A stretch of DNA of 64,000 bases from Leptospirales bacterium (GTDB lineage Bacteria; Spirochaetota; Leptospiria; Leptospirales; Leptospiraceae). The translations under genes were made by a program, and so were the position numbers. Below are positions 3,650 to 62,676 of the stretch, piece by piece. The stretch covers positions 1 to 64,000 of the forward strand of contig JAAFIR010000014.1 of NCBI GenBank assembly GCA_013297885.1, written 5' to 3'. The first letter of the stretch is position 1, and each line of letters starts with the position of its first letter. The notes below the pieces were generated by a model. The model did not search any database, had not been told where the DNA came from, and saw nothing but the letters and a program-made list of their open reading frames with translations.

Positions 3650-3684
3650 AGTTTTATTTTACAGAAATAGTTTCACAACACAAA

Positions 3685-3809
3685 GCGAAAGTGATTGAAG
3701 CGTTTCTGAATCCTCTGACTTTAGTCAGAGGATTCAGAAGTAGCGAAAAGCACGGTTTTACAAAAGTAAGGACTTAATTCATTAAGTCTTTACTTTTGTG
3801 AAATTCGCC
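3685..3809 (+). repeat. Structured intergenic repeat, copy A
   Basis: Box 1 GCGAAAGTGATTGAAGCG is followed by hairpin 1 (arms CTGAATCCTCTGAC and its exact complement), box 2 GAAGTAGCGAAAAGCACGG, hairpin 2 (arms of about 19 bases, one G-T wobble) and box 3 TTCGCC. The terminal GCGAA pairs with TTCGC. Unlike most copies, it is read box 1 first by the upstream gene. Confidence 0.85.
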
Positions 3810-3897
3810 AAAAAAAAATTTAAAAGAAATATTCTAAGTAAATAAATTATACTTGTATAAAATTTATATCAAAACTTCTTTCTTTTTAGAGGCTTAA

Positions 3898-7255: not shown

Positions 7256-7383
7256 GGGCGAATTTTTCCACTTAACTTTTATTAGCCGCAAAATGATTAT
7301 AATAAAAGTGGAAAAAGCGTGCTTTCAACTCTCATCAAAAAATTTTATGCAAAATTTTTTGATGCCGTCTCAATCACTTTCGC
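7256..7383 (-). repeat. Structured intergenic repeat, copy K
   Basis: On the minus strand it reads GCGAAAGTGATTG (box 1), a hairpin with arms near ATCAAAAAATTTT, box 2 TTGAAAGCACG, a second hairpin built on TTTTTCCACTT and AAGTGGAAAAA, and box 3 TTCGCCC. It fills the gap between two plus-strand genes and ends 28 bases before the ATG at 7412, so it may lie in that gene's leader. Confidence 0.8.
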
Positions 7384-7411
7384 TTTTGTTGAAAAAATTT
7401 GGTTTGGGTAT

Positions 7412-15150: not shown

Positions 15151-15175
15151 TTAAACCAAATTCCCCACAAGACTA

Positions 15176-15286
15176 GCGAAAGAGATTGTAGCGGAAATCC
15201 TTTTGCAGAGCAAAAGATTGGAGCGTAAAGCTCGGTTTTTTTAGTAGGTCACGCAAATAAGGGTGACCTACTAAAAAAATTCGCCC
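15176..15286 (+). repeat. Structured intergenic repeat, copy B
   Basis: Box 1 GCGAAAGAGATTGTAGCG, hairpin 1 (CTTTTGC, loop AGA, GCAAAAG), box 2 GGAGCGTAAAGCTCGG, hairpin 2 (TTTTTTAGTAGGTCAC and its exact complement, 9-base loop) and box 3 TTCGCCC. GCGAA and TTCGC pair. It lies downstream of etfA, with the box 3 end facing etfA. Hairpin 1 shares its core with copy D. Confidence 0.85.
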
Positions 15287-17275: not shown

Positions 17276-17350
17276 GGGCGATTCGCCTGAAGGCGACCAC
17301 GCTTTCCGCTACTTCTTCGTTTCACGAAGAAACGCTACAATCGTTATCGC
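17276..17350 (-). repeat. Structured intergenic repeat, copy C (short form)
   Basis: On the minus strand: GCGATAACGATTGTAGCG, hairpin 1 (TTTCTTCG, TGAAA, CGAAGAA), box 2 GTAGCGGAAAGCGTGG, hairpin 2 (TCGCC, TTCA, GGCGA) and box 3 ATCGCCC. The terminal helix is GCGAT/ATCGC, a compensated change from copies with GCGAA/TTCGC. It lies between divergent genes. Confidence 0.85.
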
Positions 17351-17450
17351 GTTTTGCTTTTTTGAAAATAACTTTCCATATTCATAATTCTAAATTCTTA
17401 GAGAGAATGTAGTTGACTATTCAGTTTTTAACATTTGAGTATAATACTCT

Positions 17451-23230: not shown

Positions 23231-23377
23231 GGGCGAATTTTTAATTTGTATGTTATGCATGTATGCAAAAACCTACAAATTAAAAACCGTGCTATTCGCT
23301 GCAATCTTTTGCTATCTTTCTTAATTGATGTATTTCATTATGAAATGCAAAAGTATTTTCGCTTCTATCACTTCCGC
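23231..23377 (-). repeat. Structured intergenic repeat, copy D
   Basis: On the minus strand: GCGGAAGTGATAGAAGCG, hairpin 1 (CTTTTGC, long loop, GCAAAAG), box 2 GCAGCGAATAGCACGG, hairpin 2 (TTTTTAATTTGTA and its exact complement) and box 3 TTCGCCC. The box 3 end lies 13 bases after the carB stop. The terminal helix keeps a G-T wobble. Confidence 0.8.
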
Positions 23378-23473
23378 AAACTTCACATTATAGAGAAATT
23401 TTATTTGTAATTTGTTTTGGAATATAGTTTTCAAAATAGAATTAAAATTTATTCTGTAATCAATTAATAACCC

Positions 23474-26755: not shown

Positions 26756-26769
26756 TTAACAGTGATTAT

Positions 26770-26916
26770 GCGAAAGGGATTGCAGCGTTTCCCAAGACAG
26801 CTGGTAGCTACCAGCTGTCTTGGGAAGTAGCGTAAAGCCCGGTTTTTTTGTTGGTCGTGAACGACAGGCATACCTATCAACTACGAAAAAATAAGGACCA
26901 ACAAAAAAATTCGCCC
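26770..26916 (+). repeat. Structured intergenic repeat, copy E
   Basis: Box 1 GCGAAAGGGATTGCAGCG, hairpin 1 (a 38-base perfect palindrome with arms TTCCCAAGACAGCTGGTAG and its complement), box 2 GAAGTAGCGTAAAGCCCGG, hairpin 2 (TTTTTTTGTTGGTC and its complement around a 38-base loop) and box 3 TTCGCCC. GCGAA pairs with TTCGC. Box 3 ends 3 bases from the ndk stop codon. Confidence 0.9.
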
Positions 26917-38285: not shown

Positions 38286-38459
38286 GGGCGAATTTTTTTA
38301 CCTAACCCTGTTAACCTCACAAGGAAGGGGCTTAAGAAAAACTTTATTCAATATAAATAAAATTGGGTTAGGTAAAAAAACCGTGCTTTTCGCTACTTCT
38401 TCTAGTTAAGTGAGGCTTAAGTCTCACGTTACTAGAAGAAACGCTACAATCACATACGC
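38286..38459 (-). repeat. Structured intergenic repeat, copy G
   Basis: On the minus strand: box 1 GTATGTGATTGTAGCG, hairpin 1 (TTCTTCTAGT ... ACTAGAAGAA with a few mismatches inside), box 2 GAAGTAGCGAAAAGCACGG, hairpin 2 (TTTTTTTACCTAACCC and its complement around a long loop) and box 3 TTCGCCC. It lies just after ccmF, box 3 end first. Confidence 0.85.
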
Positions 38460-38560
38460 ATGCTTCGCCAGTATCAAAAAAAATTATTTTTCCTTTTTCA
38501 ATACTCTTTTGTTTTCTTCTTGAGAAACTTCAAGCCAATACTCAAGATTTTTTGCAGAGC

Positions 38561-56112: not shown

Positions 56113-56314
56113 TTTGTCAAAATAATTATTTTAAAATTAATTCGCAATAGAATTAATTTTATTATTGTAAAAATTATTTTCAATTTGCATTAAATTAAAA
56201 TTTATAACTATTAGTTCGATATTGACAAAACTGTAGATATGGATTAATAAAATTTTTTAAAAGAGAATTTTTTTTATTTTAATATAAGTAATAGAGCTAA
56301 TTCAAGAGTTTGAA

Positions 56315-56422
56315 GCGATTGGGATTAGCGAAGCGGAGCTATTCTGAAAAGCCTCTGAATTTAGTCAGAGTTTTTTCAGAAGTAGCTAAAAGCCCGGTTT
56401 TTGCAATAGCAAAAAATCGCCC
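56315..56422 (+). repeat. Structured intergenic repeat, copy H
   Basis: Box 1 GCGATTGGGATTAGCG, hairpin 1 (TTCTGAAAA..CTCTGA and TCAGAG..TTTTCAGAA), box 2 GAAGTAGCTAAAAGCCCGG, hairpin 2 (TTTTTGC, AATA, GCAAAAA) and box 3 ATCGCCC. The terminal helix is GCGATT/AATCGC. The box 3 end lies 25 bases from the stop of the acyltransferase gene. Confidence 0.8.
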
Positions 56423-57858: not shown

Positions 57859-57953
57859 GGGCGATTCGCTGCATGCAGCGACCGAGCTGCTTTGGACTTC
57901 ACTATCGTTTCGGTCTCTTTAAGACAGCTTCGCTTCCTCCGCATCTCTATCGC
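57859..57953 (-). repeat. Structured intergenic repeat, copy I (GC-rich subtype)
   Basis: On the minus strand: GCGATAGAGATGCGGAGG (box 1 variant), a middle section with GCTGTCTT/AGAGAC pairing, box 2 AAAGCAGCTCGG, hairpin 2 (CGCTGCATGCAGCG) and box 3 ATCGCCC. Terminal helix GCGAT/ATCGC. It is nearly the same as copy J, with a 10-base insertion. The remaining gap to 58072 shows only a 13-codon frame I do not support. Confidence 0.8.
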
Positions 57954-58072
57954 TTGTAGATTAAAAAATTAACTGAAAAGATATAACTTATTTTTTTAAA
58001 TGGCTTCAAACTCAGAAGAAACCAAATCCAAAGAAAGATAAGATATTGAAGTAAGCTAGGTAAGTAAAAGTT

Positions 58073-62501: not shown

Positions 62502-62585
62502 GGGCGATTCGCTGCAGGCAGCGACCGAGCTGCTTCGGACTTCGGTCTCTTCGAGACAGCTTCGCTTCCTCCGCATCTCTATCGC
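62502..62585 (-). repeat. Structured intergenic repeat, copy J (GC-rich subtype)
   Basis: On the minus strand: GCGATAGAGATGCGGAGG, hairpin 1 (GTCTC, GA, AGAGAC region), box 2 GAAGCAGCTCGG, hairpin 2 (CGCTGC, CT, GCAGCG) and box 3 ATCGCCC. Terminal helix GCGAT/ATCGC. It is almost identical to copy I over 80 bases. It lies between the DUF2064 gene and the last gene. Confidence 0.85.
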
Positions 62586-62676
62586 TAGTAGAGTAGAAAT
62601 CAAACTGAACAAAATAATTCTTTAAAATTTATTTTGACTTCTTTACTTTTTAAAAATTCTTTTGATATTGGATTTT

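Follow-up and report, generated by a model that had tools for sequence, protein, structure and literature searches.

Compensated ends of a repeat upstream of etfB in a Leptospirales genome and its relation to the Flavo-1 motif

The repeat found at positions 17,276 to 17,351 of the window (the whole stretch of 64,000 nucleotides analysed here) belongs to an abundant family whose two ends, as the comparison of many copies supports, pair with each other, and the compensated changes between these ends, which had been noticed in an initial annotation of the same DNA, are real. As shown by co-variation, the element folds as a three-way junction: helix P1 closes it, hairpins H1 and H2 are variable, and between these two lie a further helix (P3) and an internal loop that is conserved. 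The reading that we favour, to which a probability of about one half is given, is that of a non-autonomous, REP- or MITE-like mobile DNA repeat, which is folded and extends the Flavo-1 motif.

The copy at 17,276 and the other copies of the window

The copy in question was matched by the R2 model at 68.8 bits (E = 1.5e-16) in the genome-wide search and with E = 2e-18 in the search of the window, both of which E-values are to be read in the light of this copy being itself a member of the R2 training set. Its sequence runs GGGCGAT-TCGCCTGAAGGCGA-CC-ACG-CTTTCCGCTAC-TTCTTCGTTTCACGAAGAA-ACGCTACAAT-CGT-T-ATCGC-G, and its parts are the following (A2 being an alignment described below):

17276–17351, + strand: whole element, form 2, in the order P1-H1-P3-loop-H2 (R2 model match)
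17278–17282, + strand: 5' strand of P1, GCGAT, partnered by 17346–17350
17283–17296, + strand: hairpin H1, TCGCC TGAA GGCGA (sequence; H1 co-variation in the alignments)
17299–17301, + strand: 5' strand of P3, ACG, pairing with CGT
17302–17312, + strand: 5' side of the conserved internal loop, CTTTCCGCTAC (alignment columns mostly invariant or nearly so)
17313–17331, + strand: hairpin H2, TTCTTCG TTTCA CGAAGAA (sequence; alignment A2 contains no broken H2 pair)
17332–17341, + strand: 3' side of the conserved internal loop, ACGCTACAAT (alignment columns)
17342–17344, + strand: 3' strand of P3, CGT (alignments)
17346–17350, + strand: 3' strand of P1, ATCGC (alignments, parsed copies)

P1 is absent from the minimum-energy folds of this copy alone, since H1 has sequence in common with P1 and competes with it, and the case for P1 is therefore a comparative one. 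The element measures about 75–175 nt, and ten copies in the window, the one above included, match at least one of the two full-structure models (R1/R2) at E < 0.001, the others being:

3684–3810, − strand: copy with P1 GCGAA/TTCGC (model match, 6e-16)
7256–7384, + strand: copy with P1 GCGAA/TTCGC (model match)
15175–15286, − strand: copy of form 1 with P1 GCGAA/TTCGC (3e-18; Rfam Flavo-1 above gathering too)
23231–23378, + strand: copy of form 1 with a single A-C / G-T mispair in P1 (7e-14; Flavo-1 above gathering too)
26769–26916, − strand: copy with P1 GCGAA/TTCGC (head at 26916 by eye; model match to 26866)
38286–38460, + strand: copy with one mismatch in P1, GCGAA/TACGC (head at 38286 by eye; model match from 38370)
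56314–56422, − strand: copy with P1 GCGAT/ATCGC (model match)
57859–57954, + strand: copy of a third form with P1 GCGAT/ATCGC (model match)
62502–62586, + strand: second copy of the third form, likewise with P1 GCGAT/ATCGC (model match)

The two copies of the third form resemble each other in an unusual middle part rich in G+C (CCGAGCTGCTT..GACTTC), and their kinship appears to be recent. One H2 module (CTGAATCCTCTGACTAAAGTCAGAGGATTCAG and variants) recurs in the window copy at 3684–3810 and at three further loci (L080, L087 and L088) together with differing P1 and P3, which suggests that hairpins may be exchanged as modules.

The initial annotation had described four copies ending in GCGAA/TTCGC, four ending in GCGAT/ATCGC and one mispaired copy, a pattern that was found as described (its copy with GCGGA/TTCGC is the one at 23231–23378, read on the other strand). 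It had also taken the joint change of both ends as direct evidence of pairing, which says too much for the window: the pattern exists, but co-variation there concerns a single base pair that takes two states. Under independent ends the odds of this are 1 in 70, two of the copies (57859 and 62502) look closely related, and the window is by itself suggestive only.

Pairing of the ends across copies, an orthologous site and other genomes

At the level of the genome, two trimmed gapless alignments were made, A1 from 23 copies of form 1 (AATC-TTTT/AAAAG-GATT above the loop) and A2 from 11 copies of form 2 (TTC/GAA). H1 co-varies in both, and the covariation is lost in slid-register controls (A1, A2 and the Flavobacteriaceae-type alignment considered below). 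The observed covariation score was reached by none of 500 shuffles of either alignment, and among 73 parsed copies, the heads of which were picked by their GGG motif and their H1 stem, irrespective of whether P1 was complementary, all P1 pairs are Watson-Crick in 60 (shuffled mean 20.4, maximum 33, 10,000 shuffles) and all P3 pairs in 69 (20.5 in shuffles), all of these shuffle numbers leaving the kinship among copies in place and not being strict probabilities. The stronger argument is the number of independent P1 pair types, of which at least nine were found (GCGAA, GCGAT, GCGAG, GCGTT, GCAAA, GCAAG, GAGAA, GAGTT and GGGAA, each with its complement, e.g., GCGTT/AACGC, GAGTT/AACTC and GGGAA/TTCCC), with changes at four of the five pairs.

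The copy at 17,276 lies upstream of etfB, and in two congeners (G002 and G003) an element occupies the corresponding place with matching orientation; in four other genera of the family the etfB site is without it. P1 at this site reads TT/AA in the congeners (with one G-T in G002) versus AT/AT here, i.e., a compensated pair difference, and P3, H1 and H2 also differ between this genome and the congeners, so the site shows either a structure kept during sequence turnover or a replacement in place. A second shared site (L162 versus L014) is likely. The congeners hold 3–5 copies versus at least 230 in this genome, a contrast in which the amplification may be overstated, the congener search model having been trained on this genome (the P4 stem differs).

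Farther afield, a DNA pattern search led to one matching locus, in a Lutibacter MAG, and full-length copies are found by R1 in Flavobacteriaceae-type genomes (e.g., L030 at 71.6 bits). All five P1 pairs vary on both sides across these genomes, in an alignment that was fitted to the model and thus favours structure; head and tail pairs that can be read directly are GGGTGTT/AACAC, GGGTATT/AATAC, GGGCATT/AATGC and GGTGGTT/AACC.

Could the co-variation of the ends be an artefact of chance or ancestry, with two subfamilies differing at both ends for unrelated causes? The window alone, with its one varying pair in two states, would leave room for this, but at least nine P1 pair sets genome-wide, changes on both sides at all five P1 positions in another phylum, the failure of the slid-register controls and the compensated pair at the orthologous etfB site make such an explanation barely tenable. 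As far as comparison of copies can tell, the statement of the initial annotation that the ends pair and that the element folds as a unit therefore holds up, in the sense of a constraint on the fold as a whole, P1 and P3 co-varying genome-wide and P1 also between phyla and at the etfB site; independent variation of the two ends in a larger set of copies, which had been named as the observation that would speak against it, was looked for, and the larger set backs pairing.

Flavo-1 and the nature of the folding molecule

The Flavo-1 RNA motif (Rfam RF01705) was described from Bacteroidetes (Weinberg et al. 2010, PMC2864571). Its gathering threshold of 42 is exceeded by two matches in the window, at 15171–15241 (53.5 bits) and 23281–23379 (44.3 bits), and 86 matches were obtained in the genome at E ≤ 0.001, 71 of these above gathering; the copy at 17,276 is not matched by Flavo-1, even with the threshold relaxed to E ≤ 1, and is assigned to the Flavo-1-related set because of the common boxes and the R1 and R2 models. 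Flavo-1 has the same conserved boxes and the same H2 as the repeat described here, whereas the Rfam model covers the P3-H2 part only, without P1 and H1, is drawn on the opposite strand and is typed as sRNA; both ends of that model are unpaired flanks, so that P1 and H1 extend it. Furthermore, the description of Flavo-1 was from Bacteroidetes, whereas the present repeat occurs in a Leptospirales genome and on Paraclostridium plasmids. The element is a fuller and probably DNA-level version of this known yet unexplained family, an sRNA entry of Rfam that has had no function assigned since 2010, and P1 and H1 complete a closed fold.

Among 60 genomes of the family of the Lutibacter MAG, Flavo-1 matches are present in 41, at 0 to at least 65 copies per genome. 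The element was also found on five Paraclostridium bifermentans plasmids, three of which carry it as an inverted pair around an amidase region (L190, with L286 and L287 as further cases), distinct left and right versions of the pair being maintained between plasmids:

L190, 3982–4068, + strand: full-length copy of the plasmid pair
L190, 6810–6897, − strand: full-length copy of the plasmid pair

A tail-side pattern search of viral contigs gave no match, no phage records were found, and in literature searches on Flavobacterium, Bacteroidetes and Leptospira no repeat family with a name of its own came up beyond Flavo-1 and REP papers.

The transcript assumed by the initial annotation needs qualification, because there is neither a G-U strand preference nor a fixed orientation to genes. 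In the helices of structured RNAs, G-U is as a rule much more readily accepted than A-C. On the head-first strand the helix mispairs comprise 46 G-T and 33 A-C (p = 0.18), i.e., no G-U excess on either strand, with H2 alone showing a mild excess of G-T over A-C (27:14), as RNA would give; by this symmetry neither strand looks like a folding RNA, the mild H2 excess excepted. Of 84 copies examined for placement, 83 are intergenic, standing sense and antisense to the upstream gene in 45 and 37 cases and to the downstream gene in 48 and 33, thus without a fixed sense. Mispair symmetry and indifference to gene orientation both point toward DNA and away from RNA, and the folding molecule may be DNA.

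That Flavo-1 is nevertheless a structured RNA, an sRNA or cis-regulatory RNA as Rfam has it (RF01705 being typed sRNA), with P1 closing the fold of a transcript, agrees with the mispairs of H2, with the retention of the etfB-upstream copy in the congeners and with some Flavo-1 matches coinciding with 5' transcribed regions in the F. psychrophilum transcriptome (PMC9723704). We consider it unlikely, however, as Flavo-1 matches in that transcriptome lie sense or antisense alike and many are outside transcribed regions (PMC9723704), the copies of this genome keep no fixed orientation to their flanking genes, the overall excess of G-U over A-C is absent, and at least 230 highly diverse copies are unlike an sRNA gene. 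With a complete model and a non-Bacteroidetes genome holding that many copies, both the folding molecule and its recogniser become directly testable.

Copy number, neighbours and the explanations weighed

In the genome of 4.6 Mb, searches with models from A1 and A2 recovered at least 230 separate copies. Neighbouring copies less than 3 kb apart are inverted in 24 cases and direct in 2 (p = 1e-5), versus 68 inverted and 58 direct among those more than 6 kb apart. About nine copies are approximately 90% alike over up to 612 nt, with unrelated left flanks, and most of them sit close to contig ends; one of these (L060) carries an H1 unlike that of its sister copies. Contigs C16, C29, C30, C31, C44, C56 and C66 start or end near copies of this amplified family (L053–L060, L065), and because several contigs end beside them, the assembly has probably collapsed there.

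Like the element, REP/BIME sequences are high-copy, intergenic and palindromic, favour inverted dimers, have variable loops and are patchy among relatives (PMC3733652, PMC6006769); direct (head-tail) dimers are rare in REPs (PMC3733652) and, as the close neighbours indicate, under-represented here. The element is, however, much larger (a three-way junction). As to the REP foot (GTAG or CGTC at the stem base), the Flavo-1 strand of many copies, by impression and not by count, does contain GTAG (GATTGTAGCG), but its position is the internal loop and not a foot. With MITEs the element shares being short and non-coding, as well as a recently amplified subfamily with unrelated flanks, whereas neither terminal inverted repeats like those of known transposases nor an insertion or excision event with target duplication was seen. 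Integron attC sites, the core ends of which are not free in sequence, were dropped as candidates, P1 being free in sequence; intrinsic terminators were rejected as well, since none was found around the 17,276 copy and orientation to genes is not fixed.

A RAYT/TnpA-REP (Y1 HUH) system, of which the element would be the REP, could be envisaged, above all for the “atypical secondary structures” of the Bacteroidetes subclass 2.6, as such structures flank Y1 genes in Bacteroidetes (PMC6006769), the inverted-dimer habit is that of REPs (PMC3733652), and the single Y1 gene of this genome has an element about 560 nt upstream. This is nonetheless quite improbable: whereas REPs of RAYT systems flank Y1 genes, R1 matches nothing within about 1.5 kb of any of 31 Flavobacteriaceae-type Y1 loci, none of the 20 of these scanned against Rfam has a Flavo-1 match, the Y1 gene is absent from 10 of the 23 genomes with five or more copies, and the Y1 gene of this genome is then followed by a different palindrome family. 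Over the 60 genomes, the presence of Y1 and that of Flavo-1 are correlated (Fisher p = 0.002), a correlation for which a general load of mobile elements may be responsible; with Y1 loci lacking the element and element-rich genomes lacking Y1 in that same set, Y1/RAYT as the mobiliser is not supported. The analysis, with Y1/RAYT and DUF1564 as the candidates examined, linked no transposase or recombinase to the element. The REP palindromes that follow the genome's only Y1 gene (CAGTGGGTCAAGACCCACTG; L009 1845 and 1926) have closely similar counterparts inside H1 or H2 of two elements (L068 2899; L102 1550), as if hairpin tips were landing sites.

A folded DNA site serving the host (for a nucleoid protein, a topoisomerase, termination or strand initiation) and selected at fixed places would account for the place and orientation that the etfB copy shares between this genome, G002 and G003 despite entirely different H1 and H2, for the second likely shared site (L162 and L014) and for the plasmids with their stable inverted pair around the amidase region. 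The swing from 0 to at least 65 copies within one family, the sharp drop in the congeners and the recent amplification of one subfamily run against such a function, which we regard as rather doubtful; the retention of the etfB copy in congeners fits host function as well as it fits slow turnover.

The reading as a mobile DNA repeat is preferred because of fold co-variation, at least 230 intergenic copies without gene orientation and inverted neighbours; because of an amplified family with unrelated flanks and contig ends close by; because copy numbers differ greatly between relatives (0 to at least 65; at least 230 versus 3–5) and plasmids carry inverted pairs; and because G-U excess is lacking and hairpins are replaced (L060; the palindromes in H1/H2). 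Against it count the retention of the etfB-upstream copy, the mild G-T excess of H2, the congener contrast that may be overstated, and the negative outcome for a linked transposase or recombinase and for insertion or excision events with target duplication. The conserved loop and paired ends would then be read as folded single-stranded DNA or as a cruciform, the reader would be a DNA-processing enzyme supplied in trans, and hairpin tips might be replaced freely provided that the hairpin form stays. As a tentative and less probable proposal, the three-way junction with its exchangeable hairpins might serve, in the form of folded single-stranded DNA, as the site recognised by an undescribed DNA-processing system that moves or pairs such sites; inverted pairs on chromosomes and plasmids would then be the functional unit, and Flavo-1 would have been misfiled as an sRNA.

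DUF1564 (PF07600), a family known from Leptospira, occurs 22 times in this genome (L073–L094), by which the genome is probably that of a Leptospira relative. The element lies within 1.5 kb at 14 of these 22 loci (p = 9e-7 against density), its tail faces the DUF1564 gene in 16 of 17 cases, and the orientation is the same at four congener loci (L257, L262, L263 and L273). As a dedicated partner DUF1564 is not required, being equally expanded in relatives without Flavo-1. Its predicted fold (L091, 1453–2013, + strand; mean pLDDT 63) consists of two tandem ribbon-helix-helix units; in the PDB the model matches best to F plasmid relaxosome chains (9f0y_E and others; probability 0.99, E 0.035) and weakly to single-chain Arc.
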